64,000 bases of DNA from Pirellulales bacterium (GTDB lineage Bacteria; Planctomycetota; Planctomycetia; Pirellulales; Lacipirellulaceae). Positions 1 through 7,060 of this stretch are shown one piece after another. The stretch covers positions 248,001-312,000 of the forward strand of contig JAHBXQ010000001.1 in assembly GCA_019636345.1 (NCBI GenBank). The letters are read 5' to 3'. The notes under the pieces were generated by a model, which saw only the letters and a program-made list of their open reading frames with translations, did no database searches and was not told the DNA's origin. How positions within the stretch are numbered: position 1 is the stretch's first letter; every line of letters begins with the position of its first letter. The position numbers and the translations under genes were made by a program.

Positions 1-2172
1 CTCGCCGAGATCCGGCGACTCGGACTGGGGCCCGAGCAGTGCCTCGAACGGGCCCTCGCGGCAGTCGCGGTCGACGACACGCAGCGCGAAACGACGCTGC
101 GGGACGCGCTGCTGGCGCTTCCCGGGTGGGCGGGCATGCTGTGGCAGATGGAAACCAACGCCGAGTGGACCGTCCGTCCCGCGCCGCCGGGAACTCTGCT
201 CGAGTACGCGGCCATTCGCCTGCTGTTGACGAAGTTCGCCGAGAAATTTCTGGCTCGCGCCGATGCAGCCGATTCGCCTCCGGCGGAGCCCAAGCTCGCT
301 GGCCGCAGTCCGCTGCTGCAGGCGTTTCGGGTGTTTCAGATTGCACAGGTCCGGGGGTGGACGCCGGTTGATCTGCTGCGTCTGCGGCCGGCCGAGTGGC
401 GCCGATTGCTGCGCGAGGTCGAGGCGTTCTCCAGCCGAGAACGACGACGCATCTATCACCAAGCGTACGAACGCCGCCTGCGCGAGGAGGTCCTCGGGGC
501 GATTTGCGAGAACGCTCGCGCGATCGCGCGCCCGACGAGCCCTGCGGCTCTGCCGGCGTTCCAACTGGTCGCCTGCATCGACGATCGCGAGGAGTCGTTT
601 CGCCGTCACCTCGAGGAGGTCGCTCCGGAGTGCGAGACGTTCGGCTACGCCGGGTTCTTCGGCGTGGCGATGTACTATCGGGGCGTCAGCGAGGCGCACT
701 TTCGTCCGCTCTGCCCGGTCAACGTCAAGCCGCGGCATTACCTGCAGGAGAAACCCGCGCTGTCGGCTGAGGAGGCGAGCCGCCGGCAAGCGCGAGCCCG
801 GCGCACCATTGGCCGCGTGATCCATGCGGCGAACCTTGGGGCTCGGACGCTGCTGGGGGGCGCCGTGGCGAGCCTGATGGGCGCTGCGGCGACGCTGCCG
901 CTTGTGTTGCGCGTCGTGGCGCCGCGAACGGCCGGCCAGTTCCAGAAGTTGTTCGGACGGATCGTCGTCCCGGGGCGGACCCAATTGACGATCGAGCGGA
1001 CCCATCCCTTGCCGGGAAGCGGCGTCGATCAACTCGGCTATCACGTCGACGAGATGGCTGCGATTGTGGAAGGGACTTTGCGAGCAATCGGGCTCGTCGA
1101 GCGTTTCGCCCCGCTGGTGATCGTCGCGGGGCACGGCTCAAGCAGCCTCAACAATCCCCACGCCGCCGCTTATGACTGCGGCGCGTGCGGCGGCGGACGA
1201 GGGGGCCCCAACGCCCGCGCTTTCGCTCAGATGGCCAACGACCCGCGGCTCCGGGCCGCGCTTGCCGCTCGCGGGTTGAAGGTCCCCGAATCGACATGGT
1301 TTCTCGGAGCGTACCACAACACGGGGGACGACGGGATCGAGTACTACGACCTCGACGAACTGCCCGCGACTCGTCGCGCGGCGTTCCAGACGGCCCGCGA
1401 TGCAATCGAGGAGGCCCGCACCCGCAACGCTCACGAACGGTGCCGGCGATTCGAATCGGCGTCGTTGTCGCTCTCGCCGGCGGCGGCGCTGCGACACGTC
1501 GAGGGCCGGGCCGCCGATCTCTCGCAGGTGCGCATCGAATGCGGCCACGCGACCAACGCCTACTGCCTCGTCGGGCGTCGTGCGTGGAGCCGCGGACTGT
1601 TCCTCGATCGCCGCGCGTTCTTGGCCTCGTACGACCCCCGGATCGACGACGAGGACGGATCGATCCTGGCGCGGGTGCTTGCCGCTGTGATCCCGGTCTG
1701 CGGGGGGATCAATCTGGAATACTACTTCTCGCGGATCGACAACAACGGTTACGGCTGCGGAACCAAGCTGCCGCACAACATCACGTCGATGCTCGGGGTG
1801 ATGGACGGCGCGGGCAGCGATCTCCGCACCGGGTTGCCGTGGCAGATGGTCGAGATCCACGAGCCGGTTCGGATCCTGTTCGTCGTTGAGACGACTCCCG
1901 AGACGCTCGAGCGCATCATCGCCTCCAATGCGGAACTCGCGGCCCTCGTCGGGCGGGAGTGGGTGCAGTTGGCCGCGTTCGATCCGCAGTCGAGGGCGAT
2001 GCATCTGCACCGCCGCGGGCGATTCGAGCCCCACGCAGTTTCTGCCGCGACGTTGCCGGTCGTCGACTCGTCGGCGGCCTGGTATCGCGGGCAACGCGAC
2101 CACCTCGGCTTTGCTCGCGTCGCGCCGACCGGCGTTCCCGGCGACGGGGCAGGGGAGGGGGGGGCGGCATGA
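1..2172 (+). CDS. dabA: DabA-type inorganic carbon transporter subunit (DUF2309/UPF0753), 5' end outside window
   Basis: The frame is open from the first base, so the N-terminus lies upstream; 723 residues are visible, while the family usually runs about 800-1100. Known DabA proteins carry a beta-carbonic-anhydrase-like zinc site and pair with a NuoL-like membrane subunit to drive CO2/bicarbonate accumulation. The expected ligands are visible: Cys (574-576) and Asp (580-582) in VACIDDRE, His (1132-1134) in AGHGSSS, and Cys (1177-1179) in YDCGACGG, exactly 15 residues after the His as in characterised DabA. The stop codon overlaps the next start as ATGA, so the two are probably translationally coupled. 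The last residues (GAGEGGAA) are encoded by a G-rich motif that recurs elsewhere in the window. The family call is firm; the direction and substrate of transport here are inferred. Confidence 0.93.
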   Translation, partial: LAEIRRLGLGPEQCLERALAAVAVDDTQRETTLRDALLALPGWAGMLWQMETNAEWTVRPAPPGTLLEYAAIRLLLTKFAEKFLARADAADSPPAEPKLAGRSPLLQAFRVFQIAQVRGWTPVDLLRLRPAEWRRLLREVEAFSSRERRRIYHQAYERRLREEVLGAICENARAIARPTSPAALPAFQLVACIDDREESFRRHLEEVAPECETFGYAGFFGVAMYYRGVSEAHFRPLCPVNVKPRHYLQEKPALSAEEASRRQARARRTIGRVIHAANLGARTLLGGAVASLMGAAATLPLVLRVVAPRTAGQFQKLFGRIVVPGRTQLTIERTHPLPGSGVDQLGYHVDEMAAIVEGTLRAIGLVERFAPLVIVAGHGSSSLNNPHAAAYDCGACGGGRGGPNARAFAQMANDPRLRAALAARGLKVPESTWFLGAYHNTGDDGIEYYDLDELPATRRAAFQTARDAIEEARTRNAHERCRRFESASLSLSPAAALRHVEGRAADLSQVRIECGHATNAYCLVGRRAWSRGLFLDRRAFLASYDPRIDDEDGSILARVLAAVIPVCGGINLEYYFSRIDNNGYGCGTKLPHNITSMLGVMDGAGSDLRTGLPWQMVEIHEPVRILFVVETTPETLERIIASNAELAALVGREWVQLAAFDPQSRAMHLHRRGRFEPHAVSAATLPVVDSSAAWYRGQRDHLGFARVAPTGVPGDGAGEGGAA

Positions 2173-3572
2173 GCGATTCCTGGTGGATGCAGCAATTGGG
2201 GCGCGTCGTCATGCTCGCCCCGGCCGTGCAGTTGGGAGTCGTCGGCGCCGCGATGCTCGCGGGGCGCCCGCTCGGCGAGAAGCGGACCGCCCGCCTCGCC
2301 CAGGCGTCGGTGTCGGTCGGCCTGCTGGCGGCCATCGGGGTGCTAGGGTTGATGTTGCTGTCCGGCGCCCGCCATGTCGAGATCGAGTTCGGCCACTGGG
2401 TCGAGGTCTCCAAATCGCATTTCGGCGAGCCGTTTCATTTTCACCTCAAGTTCGTCTTCGACCGGCTCTCCGTTCCGCTGGTGATCCTCAGCTACGTGCT
2501 CGTGGGCGTGATCGGCGCGTTTGCAACGCGGTACCTTCACCGCGAGCGGGGCTTCGCTCGGTTCTTTCTGCTCTACAGCGTGTTCCTCGCGGGGATGGTC
2601 GTCGCGGTGATGGCCGGAACGGTCGAGACGCTGTTTCTGGGGTGGGAGTTGGTCGGCTTGTCGTCGGCGCTGTTGGTGGCGTTCTTTCACGAACGACCCG
2701 CCCCGGTCGAAAACGGCCAACGGGTCTGGGCCGTCTATCGCGTCGCCGACGCCGCCTTCCTCGTGGCGGCGGTGGCGCTTCACCATGCGACCGGCGCCGG
2801 CGACTTCGCTGCGATGACCGGATCGGAGCCGTGGCCGCACGGCCAGGCGCTGTTGAGTTCCCAAGCGGCGCTGGGAATCGGCGTCTTGTTGTTGGCCGCC
2901 GCGGCGGGGAAGAGCGCGCTGGTTCCCTTTTCCGGTTGGCTGCCCCGCGCGATGGAAGGGCCGACCCCGTCGAGCGCCGTCTTTTACGGCGCGTTGTCGG
3001 TCCACCTGGGGACGTTCCTGTTGTTGCGGTTCAGCCCCGTGTTGGAACTCTCGCTTGCGCTCCGCGTGCTGGTGATCGGCCTGGGACTGGCCACGGCGGT
3101 CTACGGGGCGGTCGTCTCGCGAGTGCAGCCCGACGTGAAGACGGCGCTCGCCTTCGCCTCGCTCACCCAAGTGGGGCTCATCACCGCTGAGATCGGTTGC
3201 GGGTTGCGTTACGTGCCGCTCGTGCACATGATCGGCCACGCCTGCTTTCGCACGCTGCAACTGCTCCGCACGCCAAGCTTGCTGCAGGACCACTCGACGC
3301 TGGAAAACGCCATCGGCAGGCGCCTGGGCGAGTTGGCCGCGCCGTCCCGCGTGCGGTTGCCCCTGGGGGCCCGGCGCCGGCTTTATCGGTGGGCGCTCGA
3401 GCGAGGCCGCCTCGACGCGATGCTCGATCGGTTCGTCGTGACGCCGTTCTTGGAGCTCTTTCGATGGTGCCACCGTCGCGAGCGGCAGTGGACGAACTGG
3501 CTCGCCGGCGGCCCGCCCCGTTGCGAGGCCGATCCGTGCGATGCCGAGGACCTGGAGTCCGACGCCGCATGA
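2169..3572 (+). CDS. dabB: NuoL-like proton-channel subunit, DabB-type
   Basis: A 467-residue, very hydrophobic protein of the proton-antiporter membrane-subunit family (NuoL/MrpA/DabB). The conserved core GKSALVPFSGWLPRAMEGPT, followed by SSAVFYGALSVHLG, matches the central helices of NuoL, including the buried Lys. I chose the ATG at 2169 because it overlaps the dabA stop (ATGA) and begins a hydrophobic N-terminus; the open frame extends further upstream only as a shadow of dabA. In characterised DAB systems this subunit supplies the membrane channel that couples ion flow to DabA. In many of those loci it lies upstream of dabA, whereas here it lies downstream. The C-terminal ~90 residues are rich in Arg and hydrophilic, and shorter than in complex I NuoL. 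Pairing with DabA is inferred from position. Confidence 0.88.
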   Translation: MSDSWWMQQLGRVVMLAPAVQLGVVGAAMLAGRPLGEKRTARLAQASVSVGLLAAIGVLGLMLLSGARHVEIEFGHWVEVSKSHFGEPFHFHLKFVFDRLSVPLVILSYVLVGVIGAFATRYLHRERGFARFFLLYSVFLAGMVVAVMAGTVETLFLGWELVGLSSALLVAFFHERPAPVENGQRVWAVYRVADAAFLVAAVALHHATGAGDFAAMTGSEPWPHGQALLSSQAALGIGVLLLAAAAGKSALVPFSGWLPRAMEGPTPSSAVFYGALSVHLGTFLLLRFSPVLELSLALRVLVIGLGLATAVYGAVVSRVQPDVKTALAFASLTQVGLITAEIGCGLRYVPLVHMIGHACFRTLQLLRTPSLLQDHSTLENAIGRRLGELAAPSRVRLPLGARRRLYRWALERGRLDAMLDRFVVTPFLELFRWCHRRERQWTNWLAGGPPRCEADPCDAEDLESDAA

Positions 3573-5026
3573 ACGAGCTCCATTTCTCCTGGATTGAAGC
3601 CGCGGTGCTGGCGCCGCTCGTCGGGGCCGCCCTGATCCCGCTGCGCAGCGATCCCGACCGGGCCCGGCGGTGCAGCCTCGTCGCGTCGGCGATTGCGCTG
3701 GCTTGCACGGTCGGGGCGTGGATCGATTTGGCCGTCCTCGACGCCTTCGAGGCTCACGATCGGTGGGATCTTGCCGAGCGGCTGTTTCATCGCGACCTGT
3801 TGGTGGTCGACGAATTGAGCGCCCCGTTGTTGCCGCTTGTCGCGCTGCAGTTCCTGGTGACGTTCCTCGCGACGCTGCGGACCAAGGCGTCGCGGTTTTC
3901 GTTCACCATGGCCCTGGCCACCGAGTCGATCACGCTCGCCACGTTGGCGTGCAAGGAACCGTGGCTGCTCGTCGCACTGCTGGCGGCGGCCCCCGTGTTT
4001 CCCGCCGTCGAACTCGTGCGCCGGGGCGAGTCGCCGCGAGTCTTCGTACTGCACATGGCCTTGTTCGCGATCTTGCTGGTCGGCGGACAGGCGATCGTCG
4101 CGGGGGCGGCGCCGGGGAGCGATGCGGCGATTTGCGGGCTGGCGATGCTCGGCGTCGCAGCCCTGGTTCGCAGCGGCGCCGCGCCGTTGCACTGTTGGCA
4201 CGCCGACCTGTTCGAACGGGCGAGCCTGGGCGCCGCGATCTTGTTCGTCACTCCGATGACCGGCGCCTACGCGGCGCTGCGGTTGGTGTTGCCGACCGCA
4301 CCGGCCTGGGTGCTGCACCTGATCGCCTTGGCCTCGCTGGCGACCGCCGTCTACGCTGCCGGGATGGCCCTCGTGCAACGCGACGCCCGGCGGTTCTTCA
4401 GTTTTCTGCTGCTGAGCAACTCTTCGCTGGTGCTCGTGGGGTTGGAACTGGTCACTCCGTTGGGGCTCGTCGGGGCGCTGTGCGTGTGGTTGTCGGTCAG
4501 TCTGGCTCTCACGGGGTTCGGTTTGGCGCTCCGGTCGATCGAGAGCCGTTGCGGGCGGATCGATCTGGCCCGCTACCATGGCATGTTCCGTGCGACGCCG
4601 ACCTTGGCGGGGTTCTTTCTGCTCACCGGGCTGGCGAGCATCGGGTTCCCCGGCACGCTTGGGTTCGTCGCCGCCGAGTTGTTGATCGAGGGAGCCATCG
4701 ATGCCGCGCCGTTGGTGGGGGTGATCGTGTTGTTCGCCTCGGCCCTCAACGGACTGGCGGTGATGCACGCGTACTTCCGCATCTTCACCGGGTGCGAGCA
4801 CGCCGGCACGATCGACCTGCGAATCCGCCCGGCGGAGCGCGTGGCCGTGTTGGCGCTGTCGCTGCTGATTCTGGGAGGCGGGCTCTACCCGCAGCCGGGC
4901 GTTTCCTCGCGCCGGCATGCGGCCGCAGCGTTGCTCGACCAGCGAAACGAACATCTCAAACAGAATGTCACAGACGCCGCGAGTCGTCCGGCGGCCAAAT
5001 CCGCCGCCGGCGAGTCGCAACGCTGA
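3569..5026 (+). CDS. Second NuoL/NuoM-like membrane subunit
   Basis: A 485-residue protein with many predicted membrane helices. It resembles the NuoM/NuoN/MrpD type of antiporter-like subunit: RSGAAPLHCWHADLFERAS sits where NuoL/M proteins carry the K-x-P-x-H-x-W-L core, and a late stretch FLLTGLASIGFPGTLGF resembles the conserved C-terminal helices. The ATG at 3569 again overlaps the previous stop as ATGA, so this is the third member of one coupled operon. A dabA locus with two antiporter-like subunits is less usual than the two-gene DabAB pair; a second channel could raise the number of protons moved per cycle, but that is inference. The hydrophilic tail (about residues 455-485) is Ala/Arg-rich. 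It is not part of a complex I operon, as no other nuo genes are nearby. Confidence 0.85.
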   Translation: MNELHFSWIEAAVLAPLVGAALIPLRSDPDRARRCSLVASAIALACTVGAWIDLAVLDAFEAHDRWDLAERLFHRDLLVVDELSAPLLPLVALQFLVTFLATLRTKASRFSFTMALATESITLATLACKEPWLLVALLAAAPVFPAVELVRRGESPRVFVLHMALFAILLVGGQAIVAGAAPGSDAAICGLAMLGVAALVRSGAAPLHCWHADLFERASLGAAILFVTPMTGAYAALRLVLPTAPAWVLHLIALASLATAVYAAGMALVQRDARRFFSFLLLSNSSLVLVGLELVTPLGLVGALCVWLSVSLALTGFGLALRSIESRCGRIDLARYHGMFRATPTLAGFFLLTGLASIGFPGTLGFVAAELLIEGAIDAAPLVGVIVLFASALNGLAVMHAYFRIFTGCEHAGTIDLRIRPAERVAVLALSLLILGGGLYPQPGVSSRRHAAAALLDQRNEHLKQNVTDAASRPAAKSAAGESQR

Positions 5027-5047
5027 CCACGCTGGGAAAGCAAATAC

Positions 5048-7060
5048 ATGAACGCCTCTGCAAAGCTCTCCGCGGTCCCCCTGGGGGACGTTCCCGTCGG
5101 CAATGCCGCGGGGTTCTCGAAGCATTTCCAGCATGACCTGCTCTCGGGATTCCTGGTTTTCCTGATCGCGCTGCCGTTGTGTCTGGGCATCTCGCTGGCG
5201 TCGGGGTATCCGCCGCTGGCGGGGGTGTTCACGGCGATCATCGGGGCGATCGTCACGACGTTCATCAGCAACTCGGAACTGACGATCAAGGGCCCCGCCG
5301 CCGGGTTGATCGTGATCGTCGCCGGGTGCGTGGCCGACTTCGGCGGCGACGGCATGGTCGGAGGCTTCTCCGCCGCCGATGGCGCCGCATATCGCGCCGC
5401 ACTCGCCGTCGGCGTCGCCGCAGCCGTGCTGCAAATCTGCTTCGGGTTGTTTCGCGCCGGGATCCTCGGCGAGTTCTTCCCGACCGCCGCGGTCCACGGC
5501 ATGCTCGCCGCAATTGGCGTGATCATCATGATCAAGCAACTGCCGGTTGCGCTTGGAGTGTCGGCCAAGGGAGAGCCGCTGGAGATGCTCCGCGAGATGC
5601 CGCAGTACGTCCACGAGGCGAACCCGGCGATCGCCGCGATCGGGCTCGTGAGCATCGCGATCATGTTCGCTTGGCCGGCGATCAAGCGGCGCTTCCGCAT
5701 CCTCGGCCTCGTCCCGGCGCCGGTGATCGTGCTTGCGGCGGCGGTGGCCATGGGGTCGGCGTTCGATCTGCTTCACCCCCACTCCTACACCCTGCAGAAC
5801 CACAAATACAAGCTGGGCGAGCAATACCTCGTGGCGATGCCCGACAAGCCGCTGGGGATGTTTCGCGAACTGACCCTGCCCGACATGGGGGCGCTCGCCC
5901 AGCCGAAGGCGTGGAAGTGGATCTTCATGTTTTTCGCCATCGGCAGCCTCGAATCGCTGTTGAGCGCCAAGGCGGTCGACGTGCTCGATCCGTGGAAACG
6001 CCGCACGAATCTCAATCGCGACATGCTGGCCGTGGGAGCGGCTAACCTGGCGGCCTCCTGCGTCGGGGGCTTGCCGATGATCTCGGAGATCGTCCGCAGC
6101 AAAGCCAACGTCGACAATGGCGCCCGGACTCGCTTCGCCAACATGTGGCACGGCTTGTTCCTGCTCTTGTGCGTCGCGTTGATCCCGACGCTGCTCCACA
6201 GGATTCCGTTGGCGGCCCTCGCGGGGATGCTTGTTTACACCGGCTTTCGCCTGGCCCACCCGCACGAGTTTCTCAACATCTACCGCATCGGCAAGGAGCA
6301 GCTCGCGATCTTCGTCACGACGTTGCTCATGGTCCTGGCGACCGACCTGTTGATCGGCGTGGCCGCGGGGATCGTCCTGAAAATGCTCATTCACCGCGTC
6401 AACGGCGTCCCGCTGCGGGCGTTGTTCAAGCCGTATCTCGAAATCGAGGAGGTCGACGAGCAGACGAGCCGGATCGTCGCCCGCGGCTCGGCGGTGTTCA
6501 GCAATTGGATTCCCTTTCGGCGGCAGATCGAAGACGTCGGTCTTGTCCAGCGGCGCAATCTCGTCATCGATCTGGCTGACGCCCGCCTCGTCGACCACAG
6601 CGTCATGGAGAAGCTCGAACAGGTGCAGACCGAGTTCGAGCAGGAAGGGCTCCGCCTGACGATCACCGGGCTCGACGCCCACCGCCAGATGTCGCGGCAT
6701 GCGCTGGCCGCACGGAAGCAGGGCCTGCCGACCATGCGCCGGATCACGTTGTACGTCGCGGCGTCGGCCGAGGGGCGGATCGCCGAGCATGTTCGCCGCG
6801 CGGGAGCGGTTGGGTTCGCCAGCGCCGATTGTCGCCGCCTCGAGGGCCTTGCTCAGGGCGCCGGCGAGGACGGCGCGAGCGTGCGGATCGAAATCGTGGT
6901 TCCGTTGGAATCGTCCGGCGAACTGCTCGCAGCGGTGCGACGCGAGTCCCTGCTGGTCGGCGGCGGAGTTCTGTGCGTCGAAACCGTCGAGGCTGCGGGG
7001 GACCTCCTCGGCCGCCTTGCCGACGCCGGCGCGCCGGTTGAACACGCGGTCGCTCATTGA
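5048..7060 (+). CDS. SulP-family anion (probably bicarbonate) transporter with STAS and PII/SbtB-like domains
   Basis: 670 residues starting 21 bases after the previous stop. Residues 1-440 form a SulP/SLC26 permease: the N-terminal [18 protein letters not shown] and [19 protein letters not shown] are signatures of the family that includes cyanobacterial BicA. A STAS domain follows (about 455-560; [20 protein letters not shown]). The last ~100 residues (about 563-660) are extra. They begin [19 protein letters not shown] and contain [18 protein letters not shown] and [12 protein letters not shown], the strand/helix order and hydrophobic pattern of SbtB-type PII-like proteins. SbtB regulates bicarbonate uptake in cyanobacteria, so a built-in regulator is plausible. 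The SulP and STAS parts are certain; the PII assignment is mine, by eye. Position beside dabA favours bicarbonate over sulfate. Confidence 0.88.

Follow-up and report, generated by a model that had tools for sequence, protein, structure and literature searches.

Control of the bicarbonate transporter SbtA by SbtB serves as the paradigm for carbon sensing by PII-like proteins. Members of the PII superfamily are homotrimers that carry their ligand sites between subunits. A GxG sequence at the base of the T-loop is a motif of nucleotide-binding PII-like sensors, and CPII, which is also PII-like, is a separate protein of a carboxysome locus. In SbtB, an Arg43xxArg46 motif has been described in the T-loop and, in some homologues only, a C-terminal R-loop with the sequence CGPxGC (PMC10117731, PMC8352866). 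SbtB is described as a trimer placed under trimeric SbtA, with its T-loop pushed into the transporter (PMC8352866). The complex is favoured by AMP and disfavoured by cAMP (PMC10117731), and the in vivo mechanism by which SbtB controls SbtA was called unsolved in 2021 (PMC8352866). Cyanobacterial SbtB has been reported to bind physically to BicA, a SulP transporter, with unclear mechanism and effect (Haffner et al. 2025, cited in PMC13249358), so that an SbtB-type domain acting on a SulP protein has a precedent. SLC26/SulP proteins form dimers (PMC6497670). Fusions of a SulP to a carbonic anhydrase (sulP-can) are on record (PMC6458275, citing Felce and Saier 2004), as an earlier note on the DNA analysed here had mentioned. 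The term "PII" is absent from the main texts of two articles on DAB/DAC systems (PMC13144422, PMC10880623).

The locus studied here lies in a stretch of 64,000 nucleotides (the window; positions 248,001-312,000 of its contig) from a Pirellulales bacterium. Four genes follow one another on the same strand in the order dabA-dabB-nuoM-like-sulP, and the gene that closes this cluster encodes a SulP-STAS protein with a C-terminal PII-like tail. The features are as follows.

1..2172, + strand: dabA-like gene (PF10070 DabA, E=4e-189); its start lies left of the window, the whole 1019-aa ORF being L185 3614-6673
2169..3572, + strand: dabB-like gene (NuoL/MrpA family), 467 aa (PF00361, E=3.9e-37; PF00662)
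3569..5026, + strand: second NuoM/MrpD-like membrane subunit, 485 aa (PF00361, E=1.6e-19; TIGR01972 NDH_I_M, E=3.5e-35, below its cut-off)
5048..7060, + strand: SulP-STAS-PII fusion gene, an intact ORF of 670 aa plus stop
5105..6397, + strand: SulP membrane domain, about residues 20-450 (Pfam Sulfate_transp, residues 27-424; helices in the full-length model)
6398..6724, + strand: predicted STAS domain, about residues 451-559 (Pfam STAS, 21.7 bits; aligned to 5da0 through residue 547)
6728..7000, + strand: PII-superfamily (SbtB/CPII-like) domain, about residues 561-651 (profile built without the window's own sequence, AF2 model, Foldseek)
6833..6877, + strand: T-loop region without GxG (model residues 36-50; mean pLDDT of loop residues 41-50, 63)
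6881..6892, + strand: VRIE patch, R613 and E615 of the protein (conserved in alignments A1 and A3, below)

The membrane part of the fusion protein matches the Pfam Sulfate_transp family at E=1.4e-56. Its predicted STAS domain scored 17.6 bits in the whole protein and 21.7 bits when the region was taken alone, against a Pfam cut-off of 22.6, and the alignment to 5da0, a sulphate transporter chain, covers the same part. A full-length AlphaFold model, computed with alignment A4 (the window plus the fused loci presented below, 39 of 42 after omission of L098, L103 and L108), reached a mean pLDDT of 80.5 with the membrane helices present. About 105-110 residues follow the STAS domain. Antisense to the sulP and nuoM-like genes runs an open frame of 1224 codons (window 3383-7057, - strand), which is probably a by-product of high GC.

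The protein shares with BicA and other SulP/SLC26 bicarbonate transporters a SulP membrane domain followed by what is probably a STAS domain; it differs in its additional PII domain, in a score far below the cut-off of the BicA model and in the replacement of the ligand residues. Like the SulP-carbonic anhydrase fusions it joins a SulP to another carbon-related module, but there the added module is enzymatic, whereas here it is of sensor type. As in DAB/DAC systems, which are recognized by DabA (PF10070) adjoining a NuoL-like DabB, dabA- and dabB-like genes lie directly upstream of the fusion gene, whereas the second NuoM-like subunit and the SulP-PII gene are additions of the window cluster. 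CPII is the best Foldseek match of the tail and ties for the best in VIA-align, but is a free protein of a carboxysome locus, in contrast to the SulP-attached domain found here. Unlike SbtB, the window domain is fused to a SulP, is neither free nor beside sbtA, and belongs to a genome in which no match to the Sbt_1 family of SbtA was found. Neither Arg43xxArg46 nor CGPxGC is present at the corresponding positions of that domain (ungapped count from GY/GF), and the loop of the fused family is shorter than that of SbtB: by our own count it has 24 residues in most anchored rows and 22 in the window, as compared to 28 in SbtB.

An SbtB/PII-like domain on this SulP-STAS protein had been proposed in the earlier note from three patches of the tail, all of which are present and in frame: AGAVGF (6800-6817), SVRIEIVV (6878-6901) and a patch of twelve residues (6959-6994). 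Taken by itself, the window tail matched Pfam P-II at E=0.18, which is not significant, and TTHA0516 (2cz4) at E=0.057; a single-sequence search would miss its kinship to PII, for which relatives are needed. An alignment of eleven tails including the window (A1) gave a profile matching 2cz4 at 1.1e-17 and SbtB at 6e-7, and 10 of its 11 members match Pfam P-II at E<=1 (best 4.6e-13). A larger alignment, A3, joins the window tail to those of 41 fused loci (42 rows; only L103, truncated at the end of its contig, is missing). With A3, the best of the PII-like chains of the PDB was 2cz4 (1.3e-22), and SbtB 6mm2 was found at 3.6e-9. GxG is visible in the SbtB and 2cz4 rows of the tail-profile alignment and occurs in the loop of 35/42 A3 rows. 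Within the VRIE patch, R and E are invariant in the eleven rows of A1; in A3, E is invariant and R is kept in at least 90% of rows.

A profile free of self-matching was then built from 40 other tails, the window and its sister L067 being left out. In the six frames of the whole window it found the fusion ORF at 7.2e-16 (next best 0.84), and it scored the window tail at 55.1 bits, compared to 7.6 bits for the best of 2000 shuffles. The match to PII is therefore more than chance similarity, which we consider ruled out. A second profile, from six free-standing proteins adjacent to sbtA, was weaker than the 40-tail profile: in the six-frame search the window ORF came first at E=0.01, ahead of a next best of 8.2, and the tail received 14.9 bits, as against 8.7 for the best shuffle. 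The same six-protein profile matched 42/42 A3 tails at E<=0.001 (database of 42).

The AlphaFold2 monomer model of the window tail, made with A3, had a mean pLDDT of 83.4 and displayed the strand-helix-strand-strand-helix-strand order of PII. Foldseek returned 182 PDB chains at E<=0.001, with CPII of Thiomonas intermedia (5d4n_C) as best match (E=6.5e-7), and the first ten comprised this chain, cyanobacterial SbtB chains and one GlnK1 chain. In VIA-align, SbtB 6ntb_A (92 residues aligned, rmsd 2.3) and CPII 5d4n_C (94 aligned, rmsd 2.5) tied at Z 11.2. Canonical GlnZ (Z 10.1) and CutA1 (Z 9.8) came shortly after SbtB; the fold by itself therefore does not point to SbtB in particular, and structure distinguishes types of PII-like protein only weakly. 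That the tail should instead be another STAS domain or some unrelated extension is extremely improbable: at E<=10 the only Pfam match of the isolated tail is P-II, with no STAS match, and its profile and fold matches are all to PII-like proteins. A second STAS domain was thus rejected on Pfam, the A3 profile, Foldseek and VIA-align, and nothing was found in its favour. The observation behind the earlier proposal is confirmed: profiles and fold together identify the tail as a covalently attached domain with a PII fold of SbtB/CPII type, and for the family as a whole the PII/SbtB reading is correct.

Homologues in 59 related genomes either end near residue 560 or extend mostly to about 630-660, which marks the tail as a separate module. 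We scanned genome contigs with a profile of the full-length alignment A2 and retained the best 80 of at least 583 relatives. The tail profile matched inside the SulP frame in 42 of these 80 loci, and 37 of the 38 loci without a scored domain end 0-30 residues after the SulP match. The exception, a planctomycete SulP (L137:10001-11923), carries a 106-aa tail after STAS that gave no PII profile match (E<=0.01) and no Pfam P-II match, and is perhaps a far-diverged PII copy or another domain. In a Candidatus Scalindua assembly (L105 1894-5602) a second SulP match directly follows the fused SulP. A split version, with a free-standing PII gene beside an unfused SulP, was not found in the 80 loci: all tail matches at E<=0.01 lie within frames of 606-1207 aa, and among short frames a lax scan added nothing below E=0.087. 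In 13 loci we also viewed the stretch separating SulP from the DabA match; in L117 it is the first part of a DabA frame that extends beyond the match. Pairwise identity among fused copies (861 pairs, window included) averages 65% for the membrane part, 55% for STAS and 34% for the tail.

By organism in title, 40/42 fused loci come from planctomycetes. The two others belong to a Methylococcaceae assembly (L072) and an Alphaproteobacteria assembly (L108); the SulPs of both cluster with planctomycete sequences, which could reflect either mis-binning or transfer. A tail-profile match was present in 138/397 sampled genomes of the class, and in 72 of those 138 it lies in a frame of at least 600 aa (counted by hand and by frame length alone; the G389 frame has an internal stop). 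In the phylum, A3 matches occurred in 64/392 genomes, some of them weak and of canonical PII size. The genome of the window harbours one strong copy, with a profile that includes the window, and two further matches at E 0.43 and 0.49; elsewhere it encodes four P-II family proteins above the Pfam cut-off. The earlier note had regarded a PII fusion as non-standard, and we found no description of a SulP-PII fusion in the open-access literature searched. The family is real and seems to be undescribed.

We examined twenty regions around short-frame matches, mostly the best-scoring ones from the 397-genome sample. One of them, L146, turned out to hold a fusion gene whose frame is broken (L178 is broken likewise); with L177 added, the set comprises 20 free-standing SbtB-like genes. 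These nearest free-standing relatives of the fused domain mostly adjoin sbtA, a further likeness to SbtB: 16/20 have a co-directional sbtA gene no more than 2.5 kb away, and 5/20 have a carbonic anhydrase gene at such a distance, in a set that does not represent 20 independent cases because seven come from one genus. A Pfam check of the neighbours gave Sbt_1 in 6/6 and Pro_CA in 3/3 of those submitted. At one contig end, a free-standing SbtB-like gene (L155 7439-7768, - strand) faces the end of a dabA-dabB-nuoM-like cluster.

A tree of PII domains was computed from 77 rows and 112 columns and rooted on seven GlnB proteins, with a bootstrap that had not fully settled. The 44 fused domains (the 42 rows of A3 and the broken L146 and L178) form one clade with support 99/98, recovered in 98% of 200 bootstrap trees and nested among SbtB-like proteins, apart from GlnB. 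The window row has the second longest end branch of this tree (3.81, as compared to a median of 0.45), and the exact place of this and other long-branch rows is unsure because the alignment is short and the branches very long. In a quick tree of 81 SulP rows, 10 changes of the fused label are required, and starred branches force at least 6 of these. Because the fused domains form a single clade, these trees are most simply explained by one fusion event and several later losses; exchange of SulP genes between lineages is a possible alternative.

Dab-type genes were found near 27/42 fused loci, with the reservation that a dabB-type match, where it stands by itself, may belong to an ordinary complex I gene: 21 loci have all three genes, 3 have dabB and the second subunit, 2 the second subunit alone, and 1 has dabA alone on the other strand. 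Thirteen fused loci have no dab gene in the stretch available, and two stretches are too short to tell. Near unfused loci, dab-type genes occur in 29/38 (9 with all three, 14 with dabA and dabB, 6 with fewer), 8 having none and 1 being too short. In the non-planctomycete locus L117, sulP is followed by dabA and then by Mrp-antiporter-type genes (names read from ORFs), with no PII domain; in several other loci dabA lies downstream of sulP.

An OmpR-type response regulator gene is located just left of the window, divergently upstream of dabA (L185 2559-3239, - strand). Among matches of at least 50% identity, relatives 54-71% identical to it occur in 11/80 SulP loci (L067, L087, L092, L099, L103, L106, L111, L112, L114, L122 and L130) and in 5/21 regions around SbtB-like genes (L147, L156, L158, L163 and L177; the 21 include the fused L146). 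The next best copy in the window's own genome is 44% identical. This protein is a candidate for a shared regulator of both carbon-uptake systems. RuBisCO was considered as a sign of autotrophy and rejected: the two RuBisCO-large matches of the genome, both outside the window (L183 and L184; G000:C4 and C6), are closest to the RuBisCO-like OiaX model of NCBIfam, with 519 and 517 bits for a cut-off of 700. We therefore do not call the organism autotrophic.

The earlier note had described the transporter as BicA-like, a label that could not be kept. The NCBIfam BicA model gave 101.9 bits for a cut-off of 880, and the fusion protein falls below the cut-off of the NCBIfam sulP model too. The ligand residues reported for BicA are Thr69, Asp258, Thr262, Gly300, Ala301 and Thr302 (PMC13249358). 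Mapped through an alignment to 6ki1, with an inferred numbering offset of one, they correspond to A84, E302, S306, S346, E347 and I348 of the window protein, so that all six are replaced. The six window residues are identical in 42/42 fused copies and occur in 38, 38, 37, 38, 37 and 38 of the 38 unfused ones; with this near-invariant replacement, the clade has a substrate site of its own. Glutamate at a sodium-type position is linked to proton coupling in plant sulfate transporters, and as a guess from this analogy, the glutamate at the BicA sodium position would suit proton coupling.

We think it rather probable that a single event in Planctomycetota fused an SbtB-type PII-like gene onto the 3' end of a SulP gene commonly found with dabA and dabB, and that the product is a tethered, ligand-sensing gate of anion uptake that has become relaxed in the window's lineage. 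The attached domain would bind a small cytosolic ligand at its GxG loop (adenine nucleotides as SbtB does, or perhaps bicarbonate as CPII does), ligand binding would alter its contact with STAS or with the membrane domain, and the altered contact would open or close uptake of an anion, most likely bicarbonate, by the tethered transporter. Since the loop is shorter than that of SbtB, transmission of the change via STAS is more likely than deep plugging of the transporter. The more definite version, a one-piece anion importer gated by nucleotide or bicarbonate and formed by capture of an SbtB-type sensor onto a Dab-operon SulP, is a possibility that we advance tentatively. By analogy with the described oligomers, a trimeric PII domain on a dimeric SulP would be a symmetry mismatch, which counts against a gate: the fusion would need an unusual higher-order assembly or a PII domain that is not trimeric. 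Bicarbonate is the likely substrate, as judged from the position of the gene at the end of a dabA-dabB-nuoM-like-sulP cluster and from the SbtB kinship of the domain. These same two points speak against transport of another anion (sulfate or an organic acid), with the domain sensing the nucleotide state for that purpose; this reading is unlikely without being negligible, as the BicA ligand positions are replaced in 42/42 fused and 37-38/38 unfused copies and the BicA and sulP models are both below their cut-offs. It is still less probable that the domain reports the energy or carbon state to a neighbouring DabA/DabB complex rather than gating its own SulP. The gene order in the window and the presence of all three partners near 21/42 fused loci would agree with such a role, but unfused SulPs of the same clade are also found near dab genes (29/38), so a dab partnership does not need the PII domain, and five fused copies (L068, L072, L075, L101 and L127) with at least 9 kb of upstream DNA have no dab gene nearby.

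For the window copy itself, the gate has to be weighed against the reading that its domain is a remnant, with the fold loosely kept, ligand sensing lost and the tail on its way out, a serious contender that falls only slightly short of being probable. The GxG of nucleotide-binding PII-like sensors is missing from the window loop, as it is from L067, L078, L092, L105, L107 and L108. Between the window and its sister L067, which thus share this loss, identity is 76% in the membrane part, 62% in STAS and 19% in the tail (25% over 81 aligned codons). Uncorrected pN/pS in the PII part is 0.84 for the window against L002, 0.63 against L064, 0.98 against L067 and 0.79 against L068, as compared to 0.31-0.41 in three pairs of intact relatives, these ratios being rough because pS is high. 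The membrane and STAS parts of the window give 0.24-0.38. Within the same family, Adhaeretor mobilis and Botrimarina hoheduenensis (L082, L087) have no tail at all. On the other side, the membrane part of the window is also raised (0.24-0.30, with 0.27 to L067 and 0.30 to L002, as compared to 0.18-0.19 among intact relatives), so some of the rise in pN/pS is shared by the membrane part. R-x-E has been retained in the core of the domain, and the frame is open in the window, L002, L003 and L067, where free drift at an assumed 120 changes would be expected to produce about 3.3 stops (probability of none, about 0.03). With the loop signature gone and a domain that changes much faster than the transporter, sensing by the domain has probably become relaxed in the lineage of the window copy. 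The self-regulated transporter envisaged in the earlier note hence stands as plausible for the family and is doubtful for the window copy, which lacks GxG and has PII-part pN/pS of 0.63-0.98.

By analogy, the SulP-PII fusion would be the covalent counterpart of the SbtB-BicA contact of cyanobacteria. If the gate proposal is true, the fusion is a natural covalent form of a contact that is known in cyanobacteria only as an interaction of unclear mechanism. A natural covalent version on a SulP makes the question of how SbtB acts on SulP proteins testable in one polypeptide, and the natural SulP copies that have no PII domain offer ready comparison proteins.
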